This document shows positions 30,434 through 48,431 of a DNA stretch of 64,000 bases, piece by piece. The stretch spans positions 255,501-319,500 of the forward strand of contig NC_042506.1 in assembly GCF_003054445.1 (NCBI RefSeq), read 5' to 3'. Source of the stretch: Pichia kudriavzevii. Its lineage: Eukaryota; Ascomycota; Pichiomycetes; Pichiales; Pichiaceae. The position numbers were made by a program, and so were the translations under genes. The notes beneath the pieces were generated by a model. That model was not told where the DNA came from. It saw only the letters and a list, made by a program, of their open reading frames with translations, and did no database searches. Within the stretch, counting starts at the first letter, position 1. Each line of letters starts with the position of its first letter.

Positions 30434-31315
30434 GATTATAAAAAATTGGATTTATTGTTTCTTGCTTTTCCTTAAATGGAGACAGAACAATTCAAAACAA
30501 ATTAAAAGAAACAAGAAAGGCAAAGAGAAGAAAAAGAGACAACAACAACAACAATTATAAGAGAATGACAATCCAACATCCAAGGAGGAAGATGAGAGAT
30601 TAAATCCACCACGAGAGGAATTGCAGGAATTGCAGGGGGGGGGGGAAGCACTTCCAGATAAGGAATTTTTCAAACATATAGTAAACCTCCATTTTTGTAC
30701 ATAGTTGACGTTTCTCTCTTAGGTAAATGCTAACAGTGTCATGCCGAGGACGGGTCATGGGAAAAAGACAATGGGTAATGCGACTCTCTCCCGTGTGAGG
30801 ATGGCCTCTTTCGGAATTTCCACGGTGAGTGACTGTGTAGGGGGGGGGGGGAAGAAGGAGAAGGGGAAGGGGAAGCAATTGTCGGATCCGAGAAGTCGCG
30901 ACACGGACAAGTCGTCAAGAGTAGGCCAAAAGTCGTTGCTGGTATTTTTTTTACCATGGTGTTTCTGAAAAAAAAATAAAAAAAATAAAAAGGCCGCGTA
31001 GGGTTTGTATTTTAAAACTGTTTTAGGAAAACGGGACGACGACGCGACGCGACGGTGGAGGAGTGTAGGTTTCTGGGGGGGGGGGGGAAAAAAGATATCG
31101 ATATCGATATCGATGTCGACGCGACGGTGTAGTGCGTATGAGGGTGGGTTTCCCCCTTTTTGGCAGTTGTGAGAAAGAAAGAAGGGGCAACCACAACATG
31201 GGATGGAATTATTACAATTGATGTTGCGCTGAGCATTTCTAATAGGGATGAATCTAATGTGGTTGTACAATTGCATAAAGGGCTAGATAAAGAGTCAGAT
31301 AAAGATCCAGATACA
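30434..31315. other. CIT1-MMS2 divergent promoter region with poly(G) runs
   Basis: About 880 bases. Three uninterrupted G-runs on the plus strand: 30635-30645 (11), 30840-30851 (12) and 31075-31087 (13). A short ATCGAT tandem at 31095-31112 and CGACG-rich repeats at 31034-31054 lie close by. Long overlapping ORFs here are low in complexity and without similarity, so I call none. A fourth, longer G-run follows MMS2. Confidence 0.7.
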
Positions 31316-31729
31316 ATGTCTATACCACGTAATTTCAAGCTTCTTGAAGAATTGGAGAAGGGTGAAAAAGGTCTCGGAGCTGATGCATGTTCTTATGGTT
31401 TAGCAGATCCCAACGATATCACAATGACCACATGGAACGCCACCATTCTGGGTCCGCCAAACTCCGTCCATGAAAACAGAATATACTCCCTGCAGGTGGT
31501 GTGTGGTGAAAGTTATCCAGATGCTCCGCCAAAGGTGCAGTTTCTCTCAAAGATCAATCTACCCTGTGTCGATCAACGTAATGGCGAAGTTATTCAATCG
31601 AAATTCCCAACTCTTAATAGATGGCAGCGCTCGTATTCTATTGAAATACTTCTCTTGGACCTGAGAAAGACAATGGCAGAGCCGGCCAATAAGAAACTCC
31701 CGCAGCCAAAGGAAGGCGAAACTTTCTAG
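31316..31729 (+). CDS. MMS2: Ubiquitin-conjugating enzyme variant Mms2 (UEV)
   Basis: Partner of Ubc13 in making Lys63-linked ubiquitin chains on PCNA for error-free post-replication repair. From ATG 31316 it is 137 aa, exactly the length of S. cerevisiae Mms2, and nearly every block matches: PRNFKLLEELEKGEKGLG, SYGLADPNDITMT, TILGPPNSVHENRIYSL, and the end PANKKLPQPKEGETF. As expected for a UEV, there is no active-site Cys in the E2 position. The frame is open 52 codons further up but starts only at TTG and has no counterpart in the family, so that extension is rejected. Confidence 0.95.
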   Translation: MSIPRNFKLLEELEKGEKGLGADACSYGLADPNDITMTTWNATILGPPNSVHENRIYSLQVVCGESYPDAPPKVQFLSKINLPCVDQRNGEVIQSKFPTLNRWQRSYSIEILLLDLRKTMAEPANKKLPQPKEGETF

Positions 31730-32640: not shown

Positions 32641-34242
32641 ATGTCTGCCCCATTCTCTGAAATCCAGCCAATTTACTCAAAGTACCCACCACCTGCTTCT
32701 CCCAAATTCCAGTATGGGACGGCCGGTTTCAGGATGCTTGCATCAAAACTGGACTCTGTCATGGTGGCAGTGGCCACCCTCTCGGTGATCCGCTCCTTCT
32801 CCCTTCAGGGGAAAACAGTCGGTGTAATGATCACTGCATCCCACAACCCGCCTCAAGATAACGGCGTCAAAGTTGTGGACCCATTTGGTGATATGTTGCC
32901 ACAGGATTGGGAACCTTTAGCTACAAGTTTAGCTAATTGTACCAACTTCGACGAGTTTGAAAGCATACTCAACCCTTTGTGGAAGAAATACAACCCCAAT
33001 GGCAAGAATAAGGCCAATATCGTTATAGCGAGGGATACAAGAGAGAGCGGCAGTCATTTGCTAGATATTTGTACCCAGTTGTTTGAGTCAATACCTGAGT
33101 TTGTCAATTGTACAAATTTTGGTGTCTTAACCACTCCCCAACTACATTACATTACCAGGGCTTTTAACGACCCATCCTTTGGCGAACCTACCGAAGAGGG
33201 GTACTATAAGAAATTGAATGAATCTTTGCTTAGATTGTTGGAAATTAATGAATTGAACGCTTCGGACCTTACTAATGTGGTGGTTGATTGTGCAAATGGG
33301 GTTGGTGCTCTCAAGCTCGAGCAATTCTTGGAAAAATCAGCAGTTGCTAGCAAGTTTAAAGTGGTCAATGATAACACAGAGGATCCACAGCAACTCAACG
33401 TTAAATGTGGTGCAGACTACGTCAAGACAAACCAACGGTTGCCTGCCAACATTAGTGAAGCAGTTGCATCCGCTCCTAACACCCTATGCGCATCATTTGA
33501 TGGTGACGCAGATAGGCTTGTTTGCTATTACCAAGGTGACGGATTCGTGCTCTTCGATGGCGACAAGATAGCGATTTTATTATCAAGTATGATTTCAAAA
33601 TTGTTATCTCAGTTATCTGTCGATTTGAAAGTGGGTATAATTCAAACGGCATATGCCAACGGCGCTTCTACTTCTTATATCGTAGAAGAACTCGGATTAC
33701 CTTCCATTTGTGCCAAAACCGGTGTCAAGCATTTGCACCATGAAGCTCTCAAATTTGATATCGGTATCTATTTTGAAGCAAATGGTCATGGTACAGTCTT
33801 GTTTAGCGATAATTTCAGAGACAAGATTTCAAAGATCAACCATCCTGCGGCAGAATCACTGCTATTGTTGAACGACTTAATCAACCAAACTGTAGGTGAC
33901 GCCTTGAGTGATTTACTAGCAGTTGTGGCTTCGTTGTGTATTCTAAAGCAATCCAACAACGACTGGTCTAGAACATACAAAGACCTCCCTAATAAACTAG
34001 CAAAAGTCGTTGTTAAAGATAGAAATGCCTTTGTCACTACAGATGCAGAGAGAAGGTTGATTGAGCCAAATGCCATCCAACCGAAAATAGACCAACTTGT
34101 CAGTACGGTAAAATTAGGAAGATCTTTTGTTAGACCCAGTGGCACTGAGGATGCCGTCCGTGTCTATGCTGAGGCGTCAACAATTGAAGAATGTGAGTAC
34201 TTGACTAACGCCGTTGTCAAACTCGTTGCGGAATACTCGTGA
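32641..34242 (+). CDS. PCM1: Phosphoacetylglucosamine mutase
   Basis: Converts GlcNAc-6-phosphate to GlcNAc-1-phosphate for UDP-GlcNAc, needed for chitin, GPI anchors and N-glycans. Markers: the phosphoserine loop TASHNPPQDNGVKV, metal-binding loop FDGDADR, sugar-binding ANGHGTV, and phosphate-binding RPSGTEDAVRVYAEA near the C-terminus. The N-terminal FQYGTAGFRM is also typical of the family. 533 aa against 557 in S. cerevisiae. The ATG has no upstream alternative in frame. Confidence 0.95.
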   Translation: MSAPFSEIQPIYSKYPPPASPKFQYGTAGFRMLASKLDSVMVAVATLSVIRSFSLQGKTVGVMITASHNPPQDNGVKVVDPFGDMLPQDWEPLATSLANCTNFDEFESILNPLWKKYNPNGKNKANIVIARDTRESGSHLLDICTQLFESIPEFVNCTNFGVLTTPQLHYITRAFNDPSFGEPTEEGYYKKLNESLLRLLEINELNASDLTNVVVDCANGVGALKLEQFLEKSAVASKFKVVNDNTEDPQQLNVKCGADYVKTNQRLPANISEAVASAPNTLCASFDGDADRLVCYYQGDGFVLFDGDKIAILLSSMISKLLSQLSVDLKVGIIQTAYANGASTSYIVEELGLPSICAKTGVKHLHHEALKFDIGIYFEANGHGTVLFSDNFRDKISKINHPAAESLLLLNDLINQTVGDALSDLLAVVASLCILKQSNNDWSRTYKDLPNKLAKVVVKDRNAFVTTDAERRLIEPNAIQPKIDQLVSTVKLGRSFVRPSGTEDAVRVYAEASTIEECEYLTNAVVKLVAEYS

Positions 34243-34562: not shown

Positions 34563-37500
34563 ATGAGTATGTATCTACCCCTCTCACCGTTTCGCATCTC
34601 TCCATCCCCCCATGTTGGTTACTGCTTGATCTAGTTACTAACCCTTTTTGGACCTATTCTGACATACAGACATTAGTGAGAGATCACCAGAGTCTAGAAA
34701 TACATCTCCTCTGCGATTGGAATCGCAGGGCAAGAAGCAGTTGTCAATGGACGTCCCCACTCTGGTGGAAAAGGAACACCGGGTTTCCAAAGTGGACTTT
34801 TCGTATCTTGTATCACAACTATCTCCGTCTCCCGGTGCCTGGTCTCCACCGAGAAAATCGAGCCAACCTGACCTTGAGGAGTTCATAGACATGGACAACG
34901 AGTCAACCCATTCTGAGAAGTTCGAGTATAAGGGAGAAACAGTGCACGGTATCCTGGAACATGCACGAACAAGAAGCGCTGATTCAAAACATTCAAGTAT
35001 ATCATTGAACAATTCCATATTGTCAATCAAGAATGAATCGCACAACACATCCTCCTCTTTCCTTAATTCATCCGTACCCACCAATGACATCCTAAATAAT
35101 TCTTCTTTCAATGAACCATTTGTAGAGCAAAATCAAGTTGAGGATCATACACCAATAGTACACCAACAACAACACTTTGATGATTCCACGCCTGTTCCAG
35201 CTAGACGCCAAACAATAGATAACGATGATTTGAAGCTATCCAGTGAAGTCATAACGAATATATTCGCTGAAGATTCAATGACCATGCTAGAGCCAGAGTC
35301 GAAAAATCAAAGCCGTATCCAAAGTACAACATCTTCAATTTATAGTGCTCTACCAAATAGAATCCAAAGTACTACATCTTCTATGTATTCTGAAATTCCT
35401 GGTCACAAATCTGTAGATATTACCGACGGACTGAAAAAATTTAGGATATCCTCTATGAAACCACAGTTGCACAAACATACCAGTCAACCGCTTGAAAACC
35501 TAGAAGAAGTTAATGAAGAAGTGGAATTTCAAGATAATGTCACTTCCAAGTATGATTCACTAGTGGATGATCAGCCTTTGGATTTTACCTCTCCCACTCC
35601 TTCAGTTGGACAACCAACATTTCCACCTAATACAGCACCTAGAGTGTCGGTACTAGATCAATCCATTTACAAAAATAAAGGTGAACCAGCTCAGTCGAAG
35701 ACCTTATCATCAGTTCAATCACAGCAAAATATTGAAAAAATGATGGATAAAACTGGATCTTCCAAAACTGAATTATTTGATAATTATGAGATGACTGAAG
35801 AAAGTAGAAGAGATGAAACAGAAGACGAAGATGAAGATACCTCCGCTCTTTTTGTTACTGCTATTTATGCATTCAATGCAGATAGCTTGGAATCGGAGAA
35901 TGACTCCTCAATCTGTCTATCGTTTGATCAGGATGAAATAGCGTTTACCTATAATTTAGATGATTCGGGATGGGGTGAGGTAACGTTGTTGTCTTCACTA
36001 AAACGGGGTTGGGTTCCAATGAACTATTTCAAATCCACCGTAACTTCTGGTATTCAGGACATTGAATTAAAAAGCTTATCACCTAGAGACCTTGCAGAAA
36101 CCCGGGCTCCATTAAAGTTACTACTGAAACATGCTGGTACATTTTTATTGAACCCTCAGTCAAAACCTGTATACATCAATGGTGAACTACGTGGATATAC
36201 CTTTGATGTTGAGTGCTTTAATGGAATGACCGATGGTGTCCGAAAACTGTTAATTGACACCAACTGTATTTCAAGATCGAATTCGGTTGTTCAATCGAAA
36301 CCAGTCGTTAGAAAAATGAGAAAAAAACTCTTACGTGGTTGGGCCGACCTTATCGGTAAGGGCAAAGATTACATGGGGACTATAGCAAGTTCCAAGATTG
36401 AATATTTGCAACTCCTCACATTTCATTTATTGCAAAAGGCTATCACGTTTTTAGATATTTGGAGATTAGAACAGGAGAGGTTGGACGAGGAAACTCAGCA
36501 ACTACCTCAAAGAGTGGATAAAAACAGAACAACTCTTGCCTGGGATTCGTTTGAGTCCGTTAACTTGAACATCCTATACCTCGAAAAGCCTCCGATTCTT
36601 TCTTACAGAATTAACGAAATCTACAATCAACTAATAACCTATTTTTGCTTAATTGCCGGAAGAATTGATTTGGTCGAACATAATCCAAAGAGTTTTCAAG
36701 TTGTTGCAACTGTTACAGGGCACATTAATCTGTTAATCAATGAGTATTTTTTTATCATTAAACTCTTGAAAAGTACAATGAACGAACAAGATAGCGAGAA
36801 AAGGTTATCCATGAATTTAACTAAATATGGGAAGCTGACATCAAATATGAATTTGAAAACACAGATGAAAAAACTTGATTTGCAGACAGAAAAGTTGAGA
36901 CAAATGGTCGAAGAATTGAATACGTACATCAAGATATTGCATGATTCTGCCAAAAAAGAGATGTTCAACAGAGGAACTAATTTCAATGCTACCGAAGTCA
37001 ACAATAATTTGTATTTCTATTCTCGGGAGGGTGGTGCTGTCGTTGTGTGTGCATGTAAAATGATTGAACTGTGTTCTAGCATATACTACATAATGAAGAA
37101 TTCAATAAGCTTTGACGATTCAATGCTGCTACCTCAAAGCAGAAGATATCCAAATTACCTCAAAATGAGTGTTACGCCTGAAGAGTTTATTAAAAAGTGC
37201 TCTTCTGCACTAGCTAATGACTCTAATATTCAAAAACAAGTGAGTAAGTATAAGAGAGAATCAATTGCGTTGAATTCCAAGCCTGAAAAACTGAGAGAGA
37301 ATGTCAATCGAGTCAGTCAACAATACTCTATCTTTAAGATGGGTAATTCGACTGATGTGCAACTAAGTTCTGCAGGTCTAGACTTTTTGTCTCACATTAA
37401 TTCTGATGAACAATCGAACTTTTTAGCCGATGACCTTGAGACAGACTTACAGGCCACAGAGCTTTCAGACTTAGAATTCAATGTTGAAAGCGAACTTATT

Positions 37501-42284: not shown

Positions 42285-44093
42285 TCATTGGAAAACGTCC
42301 ATTGGAAAAATATCAAATAATCTTGGTTGGTTATTTTCTATTCTTTCTTGCTCCTTATTTGCCATCTCTGAGATAAAGGGAAGTACTTCAGCAGCCAGAG
42401 TAGACTTAGGCAAATAGGTAAATACGTTGGTTGGATGTCTTTTGTTATAGTTTTCACCGCTCGAATATCTGCATGATTTAGAACGTTTACCATGAGTGAA
42501 ATATTTACTTGAGTAAAACTCAAGACAAGAGTTTTTGTCTTCATTGAAATCGTCTCTAAGGGGTTTAACTTTTATAGTGTTTGTGAAATAGGCAATGTCC
42601 GATTCATATGATAGTTTTTTCAACCGAGAAAGTAACTTTATTTTTTTCCTCTTGGTGTTTGTTTCGTTTTTCGTCACATCAATCAAACCCACGTTTGAAT
42701 TTTGCGTTGGTATCGTATACGAGAAAAACTGTAATTGCATTATTGCGCTTCTTAGACTGAGTTTTGAAAACCGATCAATAATCGCATTATCAAGACGTAA
42801 ACCTCTTGATAATGCAATGAAATCAATATAGTGTGATAAGTCTAGTTCAGAAATCGATTCTAAGGTGTAGATGGTAGATTCGTTGATTATCCTATCAGGG
42901 ATTGCCTTCAAACTAGTAGTAGTTAGCACTACAGGACGATATGAACAAGCTAACAAATTAGTCACACAAGACCAGAAATCTTTGTCATCTTCATTTATCA
43001 GATCAACATCATCAAATAGTATAATTGAGTTGCTCTGTTCCAAATTTGTAGTTGTCCCAATCTGATTCAGTCTGAATTCCAAATTTTTCTTTGACCTAGA
43101 TTCATTTGAGCTAAACTCGAAAACATGGCCATTTAACTGTTCAATTATCGAGTATACCAGGGTAGTTTTACCACAACCGACTGGTCCTTCCAGGATAAGA
43201 CAAGGAACATCTTCTTTGGAATCACCATCATCATCAGAAGAATAAACGATAAAATCATCTTTAGTGGAATTTGCGCCCCTCTTTAGCTTAAGCATTCTTT
43301 TATTTGAGTCGACAGATTTAAGTGTAAGGAAGGCATTGGAAATCCAGTTGAATATGTCGGAGCTAATGTACTCTTTCTGTAGGTTTTCTGAATGACAGGT
43401 TGGTCTATATAAATCACACCATTGTGAAACCGTGTTGTTGGAGGTATTCGATCTATAATCATTTTGAAAGAATTTTGTAAATCTGTTATCAAATTGAAGA
43501 TGCTGGTATTTTTGAAAAATCTCATCTGACGGCAGTATGGATGTTTTCGTAATATTACAAGTAGGCCTATCATTCCTTGTTTCCTTTGAAAGAGAGGAGA
43601 CGACAAAAAGACTAAACTCAGAAGGCTCTATCACTGGAAGTGATGGTTGGTTTTTCTTTTGATTCGGAATTTCGACAATTAGAGGTCTTCTGAGTAATTC
43701 CTCTTCTATCGGATCTATATTTTTATTGATGAATTGATCTCGAGTAAGCCATGGTAATTCCAGTTGCTTTTCGATAGTTAATTTCGGCGCCAACTTCTGC
43801 CTTTTTAATTTATCTTTAACTTCAAGGAAAAACGGGTGGGAGGTGTTCTTTGCATGTACACGTTCTCGCTTAGAATATCTCAACGTGACAAAGAAACTCG
43901 GACGCGTTGATGTTCTAGGTTTTTTGGTCTGTTTTCTGTTTTGATGTTTGGAGAAGTTGCCAGTTAAAAGGGATAAGGCGTTAACTTTGTTGACATTGCG
44001 ACTAGTAGAAGGAGTGATGATTTCAGATTCGAACTTCATCGGGTCTTTATCCTTGTATCCCAGTAGAAGTTGTGCTGCCGTCAATTTTTTCAT
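42285..44093 (-). CDS. ELG1: Elg1-type alternative clamp loader subunit
   Basis: AAA+ large subunit that with Rfc2-5 unloads PCNA from chromatin; nuclear. The N-terminal half is basic and poorly conserved. WCDLYRP is the short motif preceding the AAA domain in RFC1-type proteins. Walker A GPVGCGKTT starts near residue 302, followed by FEFSSNESRSKKN and Walker B SIILFDDVDLI. VVLTTTS is sensor 1. C-terminal part helical. 602 aa from the ATG at 44093 (S. cerevisiae 791), so this is a short member. The frame extends upstream 16 codons only via TTG. Rad24 and Ctf18 are alternatives, but the VxLTTTSLK/LxSRGL pattern and the FEFSSNESRS block favour Elg1. Confidence 0.8.
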   Translation of the reverse strand: MKKLTAAQLLLGYKDKDPMKFESEIITPSTSRNVNKVNALSLLTGNFSKHQNRKQTKKPRTSTRPSFFVTLRYSKRERVHAKNTSHPFFLEVKDKLKRQKLAPKLTIEKQLELPWLTRDQFINKNIDPIEEELLRRPLIVEIPNQKKNQPSLPVIEPSEFSLFVVSSLSKETRNDRPTCNITKTSILPSDEIFQKYQHLQFDNRFTKFFQNDYRSNTSNNTVSQWCDLYRPTCHSENLQKEYISSDIFNWISNAFLTLKSVDSNKRMLKLKRGANSTKDDFIVYSSDDDGDSKEDVPCLILEGPVGCGKTTLVYSIIEQLNGHVFEFSSNESRSKKNLEFRLNQIGTTTNLEQSNSIILFDDVDLINEDDKDFWSCVTNLLACSYRPVVLTTTSLKAIPDRIINESTIYTLESISELDLSHYIDFIALSRGLRLDNAIIDRFSKLSLRSAIMQLQFFSYTIPTQNSNVGLIDVTKNETNTKRKKIKLLSRLKKLSYESDIAYFTNTIKVKPLRDDFNEDKNSCLEFYSSKYFTHGKRSKSCRYSSGENYNKRHPTNVFTYLPKSTLAAEVLPFISEMANKEQERIENNQPRLFDIFPMDVFQ

Positions 44094-44595
44094 GTCTTGA
44101 TAGTTGACTAAGAAATAAAAGAGAAGATTTGTCAATATCAATGCTAGGAAAGACGAAAATTTGAAGCGTGTGCGACGCGATGTTTGGAGTGTTTTTAATT
44201 AATGGCTCAGCGCATCTATCAAGAAAACAACCAGAGTTAATGATAACATCAAAGACCATGAGGTGTATCAGCAGATCTTTATGCATAGTTTGAAGCATGT
44301 AGGCATATTCACAGATGTATGAAGTGCCCATAATATGAAATAGAAAGGAGTGAAAAACTCATTGGGGGAAATAACACCGGACTCCTCAAAAGGGAGAATT
44401 TTCGTTTTCGGGTAAAGGAGCAGAAACACGTTAATAATAAAACCAAAAAAAAAAAATACACCATAAGCTGAGCCCCATTTGAAAAATATTTATGTTAAAA
44501 GGGGACTCGGTGTTAAGGATACCTTGCAAGTTTGTAAGTGCAACACTGTTTCTTTCTAGCTTGCAAGACAATTACTAGAGTAGAGGCTTTTTACT
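44094..44595. other. Divergent promoter region ELG1 / DUF2075 gene
   Basis: 502 bases. GACGCGA at 44174-44180 is a partial MluI cell-cycle box, which would suit a replication gene such as ELG1. AGGGG stress-response-type motifs occur at about 44499-44503 and an A-run at 44444-44457 lies before the DUF2075 gene. No gene seen; a 94-codon frame on the minus strand starts from non-ATG sequence and overlaps ELG1. Confidence 0.4.
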
Positions 44596-45843
44596 ATGAA
44601 AAGGGGTAACGAAGACGACATTTACAAGGAACATCAAGGGGAGTACATCGATAGACTATGTGAGGTGTCACTGTCGGAGGAACAGGAGAAAGTTAGAGAT
44701 GTTATAATTGACTTCTGCAAGCAAACATTAGTTGGTTATCAAGATGGAGATAAGGCCAAGGTGTTTATAGTTGAAGGTGGGGCGGGGACAGGCAAAAGTG
44801 TTGTTATGAACACTGTATTCAACGAGATGCAGAGACTGACAAGGCAAGTCAAAGTGGACGGACTTAAAGACGAGGACCATTACCTTTTGGTTAACCATCC
44901 AGAGATGATCCGTTTATATTTGCGTATTTCAAAGAGATATCCTTATTTAAGGAAGGGTGATGTTGACAGACCCACCAGTTTTGTCAATAGGGCCGACAAG
45001 AAAGGCAAGGCAGGCGTGGTTATCGTTGATGAAGCACACCTTTTAGCAACTTGTAAAAATTCGTGGAAAGGATGGAGATACGAGAACCATTTAATTGAAA
45101 TCTTGAAAAGGGCCAAAGCTGTTGTTCTAGTCTATGACCATCGGCAATGTTTAAGGACCGACCAATGGTGGGACAAGGACACCATGACACAACTGCTCAC
45201 CAGCGAGGGTATCGAATACAGCAAGGCCGAGCTGAAGGTCCAATGGAGAATGCAAAGTGAGGCTGTCTGTGAATGGGCACGTAAGTTCTGTTATGAGAAG
45301 GTGCAAGGATGGCCCGTCAAAGAAGCCAAGGAAGCGGGCTTTGATTTCCGTTATTTTGACAATGCCCAGAAGATGTACGAGAAAATCGTTGAAATGGATA
45401 AGAGATGTGGTAGTAGCAGGATAATCAGTACATACGATTCACCATACAGGATCAGTGGGGGCAAGACGTATTATGTTGATGGGCGGGGTGGATTCCACCA
45501 GCCTTGGGATAAATATGTTGGTGGGCCCGATGTTCCACCATGGAGTGTTAGAGATACCATCCATGAGGTGGGGAGTTGTTACACCGTCCAAGGTATTGAT
45601 CTCGAATACGCTGGTGTTATTGTAGGTAAATCTGTTGTTGTTGTTGAAAATCCTGACAAGAGCATGCATATAGAGGTTGATGTCTCTCAATACTGTGATA
45701 ATGCAGGGGTAGCGAAAAGGAACGGTCAATATCCATCTCCGCGTGCCGTGGAAGACATTATTCGGAACTCACTCTATGTGCTACTCACTCGGGGGAGGAA
45801 AGGGTTATATGTGTATGTGGAGAGGTTTGCAAGGAGAAAATAG
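44596..45843 (+). CDS. Bacterial-type DUF2075 (Schlafen-like helicase/ATPase), candidate horizontal acquisition
   Basis: A 415-aa P-loop NTPase with superfamily-1 helicase motifs in the arrangement of the bacterial DUF2075 family. Walker A EGGAGTGKS is at 60-68, Walker B VVIVDEAH with Asp145-Glu146, motif III-like VVLVYDHRQ, QWRMQ at 216-220, TVQGIDLEYAGVIVG from 330, and motif VI LLTRGRKGLYVYV at 396-408. The last two are the hallmark of DUF2075 proteins. I know no S. cerevisiae counterpart. The gene is intact, has no intron, and uses more G/C at third positions in its opening codons than its neighbours. No targeting signal; biochemical role unknown in eukaryotes, with nucleic-acid-dependent ATPase activity inferred. 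Confidence 0.82.
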   Translation: MKRGNEDDIYKEHQGEYIDRLCEVSLSEEQEKVRDVIIDFCKQTLVGYQDGDKAKVFIVEGGAGTGKSVVMNTVFNEMQRLTRQVKVDGLKDEDHYLLVNHPEMIRLYLRISKRYPYLRKGDVDRPTSFVNRADKKGKAGVVIVDEAHLLATCKNSWKGWRYENHLIEILKRAKAVVLVYDHRQCLRTDQWWDKDTMTQLLTSEGIEYSKAELKVQWRMQSEAVCEWARKFCYEKVQGWPVKEAKEAGFDFRYFDNAQKMYEKIVEMDKRCGSSRIISTYDSPYRISGGKTYYVDGRGGFHQPWDKYVGGPDVPPWSVRDTIHEVGSCYTVQGIDLEYAGVIVGKSVVVVENPDKSMHIEVDVSQYCDNAGVAKRNGQYPSPRAVEDIIRNSLYVLLTRGRKGLYVYVERFARRK

Positions 45844-46532: not shown

Positions 46533-48431
46533 ATGAAATTCTTGTCCTCATTGGCTATTGCTGGCTTGGCTTCAACTGTTTTCGCCAAGGAACATTACTA
46601 TCATTGGAATGTTACTTATGTCTCCGGTAATCCGGACGGTCTCTTGGAAGTCGATGATATAGTGGGTTGTAATGGTGAATATCCTTGGCCCGAAATCAGA
46701 GTTGAGAAAGGTGACCGTGTTGTTGTTGAGGTTTACAATGGTCTTGACAATGCAAACACTTCTGTCCATTTTCACGGGCTGTTCCAACATGGAACAAACC
46801 AGTACGACGGTGTTCCAGGTCTAACCCAGTGTCAGATTGTGCCAGGTCAAACTTTAATTTACAATTTCACGGTTCCAGATCAAGTTGGTACTTATTGGTA
46901 CCATTCTCACTCCAACGGTCAATACATGGATGGTATGAGGGGTGCATTTATTATTGAGGATCCTGACGATCCTTATAAGGCAAACTATACCCAAGAGAAA
47001 ACCATTGCCTTGGCAGAATGGTACCATGATAACATTTTCACCTTAACTGAATCATTTTTGGATTTATACAACCCAACCGGTGCTGAACCAATTCCTCAAA
47101 ACTTATTAATGAACCACTTTATGAATGCTACTATTGAAGTAGAGCCTGATACTGATTACTTGTTCAGAATAATCAATATGGGAGGTTTTGTTTCCCAATA
47201 TTTCTGGATCGAAGATCACGATATGACCGTTATTGCTGTTGATGGAGTCTATGTTAAACCAAACACTACTGATATGATTTATATCACTGCTGCTCAGAGA
47301 TATGATGTTCTTGTTCACACTAAAAATCAAACCACTAAGAACTTTGCAATTATGCAGAAGTTTGATGATACTATGCTTGATGTCATCCCTGACGAGCTCC
47401 TTTTGAATGTCACCAATAACTTACAATATAATAAAGATGCAGATTGGCCCGAAGAAAGTATCGTTGAGGAATTGGATTTCCTTGATGATTTCTGGTTAAC
47501 ACCACTTGAAGATTATGAAAACTACGATTCTTATGATCATCAAATCACCATCGATGTCGTTATGGACAATCTATTGAATGGTGTCAATTATGCTTTCTTC
47601 AATAACATCACTTATGTTGCTCCAAAAGTTAACACTCTAGGTACCGTTTTATCTGCAAACACTTCAGAGCTTGCACTAAACTCTGAAATATATGGCTCTA
47701 ACACTCATGCTATTGTTTTACAAAAGGATGAAATTGTTGAAGTCGTCTTAAATAACAATGATACCGGTAAGCATCCTTTCCATTTACACGGCCACGTTTT
47801 TGAAGTCTATCAAAGAGGCCCTGATTATGGTGATGAGGATGAGCCTGTTCCCTACAATGAATCAGCACCATATACACCAAGAGAAAAATCGCTATTCAGA
47901 GATACTCTTTATGTTAACCCACAATCACACTTTGTTATCCGTTTCAAGGCAGACAACCCTGGTGTCTGGTTCTTCCATTGTCACATTGATTGGCATTTGC
48001 TTCAAGGTTTAGCTCTTACTTTTGTTGAAGATCCTGTTGGTATCAGAGAAAAGGAAGCAGATTTGGGTGAAACATGGAAAGAAACCTGTGAAGCTTGTGG
48101 CGGCTACACAGGAAATGCTGCTAATAACACTGACTTCTTAGACTTACATGGTGAAAATGTTCAACCAAAGGACCTACCTGCGGGTTTCACAGCTAGGGGT
48201 ATTGTTGCATTGGTGTTTTCTTGTGTTGCTGGTGTTCTTGGTTGTGTGACAATTTTCATTTACGGTATGGCTGATATTCCAAACATCGAAGAAAGAGTCG
48301 TTAAGGATTTGAACATCGATGAAAGACAACTTCTTGCTGAATTCGATGAAGATGAGGATGAAGCAGTAAGTTCAACAGGTTCAACCGATCCTAAATTCCC
48401 TGATACTGTCACCCACACTTTGGAAAAGTAG
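46533..48431 (+). CDS. FET3: Multicopper ferroxidase of high-affinity iron uptake
   Basis: Plasma-membrane oxidase that converts Fe(II) to Fe(III) for the Ftr1 permease. A cleavable signal peptide (MKFLSSLAIAGLASTVFA) is followed by three cupredoxin domains with copper motifs HFHGLF (His79, His81), YWYHSH, HPFHLHGHVFEV and WFFHCHIDWHLLQGL. Iron-path acids known from S. cerevisiae Fet3 are kept in VEPDT, DTMLDVIP and NDTGKHPF. Many N-glycosylation sequons, one transmembrane helix near residues 553-575 and an acidic cytosolic tail complete the typical type I topology. 632 aa (S. cerevisiae 636). No FTR1 gene is adjacent. Confidence 0.96.
   Translation: MKFLSSLAIAGLASTVFAKEHYYHWNVTYVSGNPDGLLEVDDIVGCNGEYPWPEIRVEKGDRVVVEVYNGLDNANTSVHFHGLFQHGTNQYDGVPGLTQCQIVPGQTLIYNFTVPDQVGTYWYHSHSNGQYMDGMRGAFIIEDPDDPYKANYTQEKTIALAEWYHDNIFTLTESFLDLYNPTGAEPIPQNLLMNHFMNATIEVEPDTDYLFRIINMGGFVSQYFWIEDHDMTVIAVDGVYVKPNTTDMIYITAAQRYDVLVHTKNQTTKNFAIMQKFDDTMLDVIPDELLLNVTNNLQYNKDADWPEESIVEELDFLDDFWLTPLEDYENYDSYDHQITIDVVMDNLLNGVNYAFFNNITYVAPKVNTLGTVLSANTSELALNSEIYGSNTHAIVLQKDEIVEVVLNNNDTGKHPFHLHGHVFEVYQRGPDYGDEDEPVPYNESAPYTPREKSLFRDTLYVNPQSHFVIRFKADNPGVWFFHCHIDWHLLQGLALTFVEDPVGIREKEADLGETWKETCEACGGYTGNAANNTDFLDLHGENVQPKDLPAGFTARGIVALVFSCVAGVLGCVTIFIYGMADIPNIEERVVKDLNIDERQLLAEFDEDEDEAVSSTGSTDPKFPDTVTHTLEK

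Follow-up and report, generated by a model that had tools for sequence, protein, structure and literature searches.

The closest described systems to the gene treated here are the YPL245W proteins of yeasts, the compact DUF2075 proteins of bacteria and their GIY-YIG fusions, the bacterial AbiO and Nhi systems, and the helicase half of human SLFN11 and SLFN14. YPL245W was reportedly listed among the Saccharomyces cerevisiae genes of bacterial origin by Hall, Brachat and Dietrich in 2005. The portions of the literature consulted record lower expression of YPL245W in an iron-resistant S. cerevisiae mutant and include it in a table of proteins changed during sporulation and in a table of mutations from evolved hybrids. 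The consulted portion of PMC2715888 holds no word beginning with YPL, and that of PMC10025432 names eight of ten previously reported genes, YPL245W not being among the eight, and tabulates 15 more. No literature on Pichia kudriavzevii was found with the terms 'horizontal gene transfer' and 'bacterial origin'. The gene in question lies on the forward strand at positions 44596-45843 of a 64,000-nucleotide stretch of the P. kudriavzevii genome (C1:255501-319500, in an assembly of 10.79 Mb and 5 contigs), which we call the window, and it encodes a protein of 415 amino acids, hereafter P0001. An earlier note on this DNA had taken it for a bacterial-type DUF2075 ATPase acquired by horizontal transfer. 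With good confidence, we propose instead that it is the P. kudriavzevii member of the YPL245W family, that is, a compact ATPase of the superfamily 1 (SF1) fold that probably has old bacterial ancestry and evolves fast yet is intact. It is thus probably an old yeast gene rather than a fresh bacterial import.

The placement of P0001 among yeast proteins comes from searches and trees. The protein search gave 1337 matches, and among the best 120, the first 37 rows belong to the fungal side of the tree, the first bacterium stands at row 38, and fungal and bacterial rows are interleaved thereafter. The fungi named among the matches listed include Nakaseomyces glabratus, Ambrosiozyma, Zygosaccharomyces, Lachancea, Torulaspora, Kuraishia, Kazachstania, Tetrapisispora, Maudiozyma, Saccharomyces arboricola, Saccharomycodes, Candida boidinii, Ophiostoma, and Grosmannia, and several fungal matches carry the annotation YPL245W. 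A profile search ranks 49 fungal-side rows first, using a profile of 15 fungal-side and 2 bacterial rows that is biased to fungi. In a tree of 112 of the 174 proteins collected, 59 fungal-side rows are split from 53 bacterial-side rows at 100 in the Shimodaira-Hasegawa-like approximate likelihood ratio test (SH-aLRT), and in a careful tree of 34 rows one branch parts fungal from bacterial rows with support 100/100 and is present in 200/200 bootstrap trees. Forcing P0001 to the bacteria in the 34-row tree costs 52 log-likelihood units and is rejected by the approximately unbiased (AU) test (p-AU 0.0019). Given this split and this rejection, P0001 is a local member of the yeast YPL245W family, and neither the description of DUF2075 as a family of bacteria nor the proposed import into P. 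kudriavzevii was borne out, the gene sitting among many yeast proteins.

Like P0001, the proteins of this family (S. arboricola YPL245W and others) are single-domain PF09848 proteins with the same motifs and on the same side of the tree; what sets P0001 apart is its long branch, an identity of only 40.5% to the S. arboricola protein, and an N-terminus that, judging by lengths, is about 30-40 residues shorter than in most fungal relatives. Identity is 45-52% to nine Pichia-like rows and 36-42% to bacterial proteins. These nearest relatives (P0002-P0010) are called 'Pichia-like' on the evidence of the tree and of PCM1 (window 32641-34242), whose closest named matches listed have 65% (Pichia inconspicua) and 66% (Pichia californica) identity.

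Much of what the earlier note had read from the letters stands. P0001 matches PF09848, currently named 'Schlafen group 3, DNA/RNA helicase domain' in Pfam and labelled DUF2075 in bacterial members by the sources, with 271.2 bits (E 1.9e-80) over profile positions 2-353 of 354. The cut-off being 24 bits, a chance match is far-fetched, and the profile search that the note had proposed thus returned the domain at full length, at residues 55-409. Every motif quoted there as whole is present in the translation (GGAGTGKS, VIVDEAH, VYDHRQ, QWRMQ, TVQGIDLEYAGVIVG, and LLTRGRKGLYVYV), and the reading frame is open without interruption for 415 codons from the ATG at 44596 to a TAG that ends at 45843. 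A longer N-terminus in the same frame is ruled out by an in-frame TAG upstream. The features are as follows, all on the forward strand.

44581-44583, forward strand: in-frame TAG, 5 codons 5' of the start codon (sequence inspected by eye)
44596-45843, forward strand: coding sequence of the YPL245W-type SF1 helicase/ATPase P0001, 415 amino acids, stop included (open reading frame list, Pfam, protein searches, tree)
44671-44685, forward strand: LSEEQ, residues 26-30, with L26 and Q30 invariant, presumably Q-motif-like (70-row alignment)
44776-44799, forward strand: Walker A, GGAGTGKS, residues 61-68 (translation, 70-row alignment)
45028-45039, forward strand: Walker B or DEAH box, residues 145-148 (translation, 70-row alignment)
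45136-45147, forward strand: DHRQ, residues 181-184, with D181 and Q184 invariant, presumably motif III-like (translation, 70-row alignment)
45241-45249, forward strand: QWR, residues 216-218, in which W replaces the family's middle F here and in P0010, presumably motif IV-like (70-row alignment)
45583-45600, forward strand: TVQGID, residues 330-335, F334 of the family being I here, presumably motif V-like (70-row alignment)
45781-45804, forward strand: LLTRGRKG, residues 396-403, with invariant R399, presumably motif VI-like (translation, 70-row alignment)

In the motif alignment of 70 rows, 43 columns are invariant, all of which P0001 keeps by construction, being itself one of the rows. K67, D145, E146, R218, Q332, and R399 are identical in 70/70 rows, and the 43 columns contain the residues that binding and hydrolysis of ATP would call for. 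The earlier suggestion that the protein is functional remains probable. The predicted structure of P0001 is a confident and complete fold, which the model identifies as an SF1 helicase core; by Z score its best comparisons include UvrD (21.9), HelD (19.9), and DSH9 (19.4), and a library of viral structures returned generic helicase matches that are uninformative. Our best guess is that P0001 would be an ATP-driven nucleic-acid translocase. Its two RecA-like lobes would close on ATP by means of the Walker A lysine, the DEAH box, and the motif VI arginine, and this closure would step the protein along, or let it remodel, one strand of RNA or DNA. P0001 probably acts without a partner, because the fungal protein lacks a second domain and no neighbor is constant among the compact bacterial relatives.

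The bacterial side of the tree bears on the origin of the family. The compact DUF2075 proteins of Acetobacter, Gluconobacter, Sporolactobacillus, Loigolactobacillus, and Brenneria are, like P0001, single-domain proteins of about 400 amino acids with all invariant motifs; at 36-42% identity they confirm that bacterial kin exist, and they are parted from all fungal rows by the 100/100 branch. The GIY-YIG + DUF2075 proteins of Bacillota have the same helicase domain and also fall on the bacterial side, and several of them carry an extra N-terminal GIY-YIG domain that is absent from P0001. Because the bacterial side spans Bacillota and Pseudomonadota, these fusions included, it seems likely that the fungal family derives from one old bacterial transfer that is common to other yeasts. 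Within the fungi, vertical descent is plausible. The possibility of an old fungal clade with vertical descent, which the earlier note had itself raised, thus holds for the grouping of the fungi; strictly vertical descent is not proven, given the patchy set of named fungi and the unstable deep forks among them.

Several observations weigh against the reading of P0001 as a YPL245W-type SF1 ATPase with this history. In a tree of 76 rows (30 fungal proteins, 8 other proteins, 36 bacterial loci, and 2 outgroup loci), which includes two very distant outgroup proteins, support for the fungal fork is only 84/89, and the root is unreliable because the branches of these distant PF09848 proteins (L106 and L108) measure 4.8-5.8, which leaves the direction of transfer unfixed. 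Other candidates for rooting matched the family profile too weakly (L107, L109-L111, L113-L115, and L135), and L136, matched at 101.5 bits in two pieces, was not used. Kuraishia and Ambrosiozyma group more closely with Saccharomycetaceae than with the Pichia-like rows in the 112-row and 76-row trees with middling support, Ambrosiozyma changes place in the 34-row tree, and the placement of Ophiostoma is not the same from tree to tree. The S. arboricola protein is closer to bacterial proteins (44-48%) than to P0001 (40.5%), which we attribute to the long branch of P0001. Finally, the Foldseek template modeling scores of the predicted structure are low, about 0.4-0.5.

A history of multiple moves, in which several transfers from bacteria to fungi, between yeasts, from yeasts to moulds, or from fungi to bacteria lie behind the patchy spread, is the strongest competitor, and we regard it as possible but distinctly less probable than the history proposed above. 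Ogataea, Komagataella, Brettanomyces, Scheffersomyces, Candida proper, and Wickerhamomyces appear in the PCM1 list and are unnamed among the family matches listed, the long branch of Ophiostoma and Grosmannia has no certain position, and the root is not fixed. Against this, the single 100/100 branch cleanly parts fungal from bacterial rows, and the absence of a genus is unproven where only the best 120 matches are listed, most of them without a name. The Ophiostoma and Grosmannia sequences (P0058, P0063, and P0052, the set including one further row) are themselves YPL245W-type proteins on the fungal side. Both fungi are ophiostomatoid moulds that live with bark beetles, and their copies may have come from yeasts in the same habitat.

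We next consider how fast P0001 has changed. Since the ancestor of the Pichia-like group, it has accumulated 1.44 changes per site in the 76-row tree compared with 0.35-0.60 in eight relatives, which makes its branch longer than theirs by a factor of 2.4 to 4.1. The single control gene on which this rate claim is based, PCM1, is ordinary in rate, with 0.32 in this genome and about 0.30-0.51 in 15 relatives when the printed branches are summed. P0001 also deviates at 11/93 columns that are conserved at 90% or more, the third most of 70 rows, and these columns include motif IV (QFR to QWR, also in P0010) and motif V (QGF to QGI). Since the protein stays intact in spite of this fast change, the sequence suggests that constraint on P0001 has been shifted rather than lost. 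The length of the branch and the number of changed columns could also be read as relaxed constraint, with a copy heading to lost activity in a yeast that no longer needs the gene. We find this unlikely, as the frame of 415 codons has stayed open through about 1.4 changes per site, the motif residues that are invariant have been retained, and the predicted fold is confident and complete. Candida boidinii forms several distinct clusters (P0048, P0053, P0054, and P0101) on a long common stem of 0.68-0.82 in the 76-row and 112-row trees, which would represent another fast lineage of the YPL245W family.

The earlier note had also placed the family in defense and mobile-element neighborhoods. Our scan of genome contigs found at least 521 relatives, and the best 80 loci, which were examined, belong mainly to Acetobacter, Gluconobacter, Komagataeibacter, and Sporolactobacillus, with Liquorilactobacillus and the tree-dwelling Brenneria and Lonsdalea also present. 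By profile search, the compact gene occurs in 40/49 genomes of the Acetobacter genus group, 10/15 of the Sporolactobacillus group, and 7/120 of the wider family of Acetobacter; for PF09848 as a whole, matches of at least 150 bits, seeds included, occur in 7/149 genomes from the phylum of Sporolactobacillus and 3/142 from the class of Acetobacter. Loci of one genus often have the same neighbors, which recur at 12-15 of the 25 loci in Acetobacter and at 12 and 13 of the 14 in Gluconobacter. Across the 80 loci, only one small open reading frame is a close neighbor in at least 3 of 19 genus labels, all three of Bacillales, and farther out an ABC-transporter ATPase and an aldehyde dehydrogenase occur in four genera each. 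No defense or mobile gene is a common neighbor across these loci, and none of 10 neighbors scanned from 5 of them matches a PADLOC defense model. These ten (NifU, TsaD-family, PurD, royal-jelly-type, tRNA-editing, methionine sulfoxide reductase, PucR-type regulator, HlyIII, deformylase, and LacI proteins) are housekeeping or regulatory. For the compact form, therefore, a defense or mobile context is not the rule among the relatives sampled. Other observations point the opposite way: 36 of 72,556 plasmid records carry relatives and 4 of 50,697 phage records carry distant ones, which weighs against a non-mobile reading of the bacterial relatives, and a mobile branch of the DUF2075 family exists beside the chromosomal one.

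Two further observations concern the bacterial relatives. In acetic-acid bacteria (the genera of L019, L043, and L018) the compact DUF2075 gene is syntenic at genus level: in Acetobacter it adjoins genes for NifU, a TsaD-family protein, and PurD, and in Gluconobacter a gene for tRNA editing. The plasmid records H5-H24 carry DUF2075 relatives, and their hosts include lactic acid bacteria, Enterococcus, and Streptomyces.

It is improbable, in our view, that P0001 is a defense factor against mobile elements or viruses comparable to bacterial AbiO and Nhi or to the mammalian Schlafens. P0001 does weakly match AbiO (38.9 bits) and Nhi (32.7 bits), part-length matches of this kind recur in 9/10 relatives tested, and the helicase fold is common to SLFN11 and SLFN14. 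These matches cover only positions 179-377 of 468 and 183-374 of 470, less than half of each profile and part of the helicase core; neither model is matched at full length, and the nuclease region is not in P0001. Nor was an N-terminal Schlafen (AlbA-type) nuclease half found among the 16 Pfam rows of P0001 at E up to 1. UvrD, HelD, and DSH9 match the predicted fold as well as or better than the Schlafens, SLFN11 being one of several SF1 helicases and tied or exceeded in Z score; on this model the fold would be no closer to Schlafen than to those three, and a closer Schlafen kinship, which the earlier note had allowed for, did not emerge. Searches of PDB sequences with P0001 (1 row) or with profile A1 (11 rows) returned no SLFN chain, which proves nothing. 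The lack of PADLOC matches among the bacterial neighbors and the near-core status of the gene in Acetobacter likewise speak against defense. Lastly, it is hardly credible that P. kudriavzevii alone acquired the gene recently from a bacterium: the 36-42% identity to bacterial proteins and a raised GC content at third codon positions (GC3; 0.466, second highest, against a median of 0.358 in the 28 other window reading frames compared) are outweighed by the p-AU of 0.0019, the 45-52% identity to Pichia-like rows, and an ordinary codon likelihood, lower in 6 of these 28. The comparison with neighbors that the earlier note had proposed, made on 29 of the 31 window reading frames (31160-31729 and 34638-35111 were excluded), thus gave a deviating GC3 and unremarkable codon use.

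P0001 is encoded by a single genomic copy and as a query matches itself alone in the whole genome; one further match to the family profile above cut-off, at 26 bits, was considered as a second copy and rejected, as it is UPF1. The flanking reading frames encode an AAA ATPase (42285-44141) compatible with ELG1 and a multicopper oxidase (46533-48431) compatible with FET3. On the reverse strand at 30755-31276, a reading frame of 173 amino acids overlaps the opposite frame at 31160-31729, has a GC3 of 0.534 and the lowest codon likelihood among the 29 tested, and may not be a true gene. As for the assembly, the consulted part of the description of strain CBS573 (PMC6053246) reports 5 complete chromosomes totaling 10.8 Mb, with a telomere repeat of 28 bp at ends 2L, 3L, 4L, 4R, 5L, and 5R. 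This repeat occurs 65 times in the genome examined here. It stands at the beginning of each contig from C2 to C5, and two clusters of it at high coordinates, on C4 and C5, are taken to be the far ends of those contigs; a control pattern has 0 matches in the same genome. On these grounds the genome is that of P. kudriavzevii.

These findings correct a tempting false lead, in that a seemingly 'bacterial' protein in a yeast belongs to an existing yeast family. The stand-alone and locally syntenic gene in most Acetobacter genomes searched points to a housekeeping-like nucleic-acid task rather than to defense. We entertain, as a speculation that we ourselves consider doubtful, that this stand-alone SF1 translocase is a shared gene of sugary, acid, and alcoholic fermentation habitats with one nucleic-acid job that is of advantage there, and that the P. 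kudriavzevii copy is being remodeled quickly towards a new use; this idea rests on the spread of the family over Acetobacter, the other bacterial genera listed, many fermenting yeasts, and two bark-beetle fungi. If it were true, a single enzyme would link the bacterial and the fungal inhabitants of a shared fermentation. The importance of the gene is modest and lies mainly in its function, in how it is distributed over fermentation organisms, and in how fast the P. kudriavzevii copy evolves, and its membership in the YPL245W family makes that function testable in baker's yeast.
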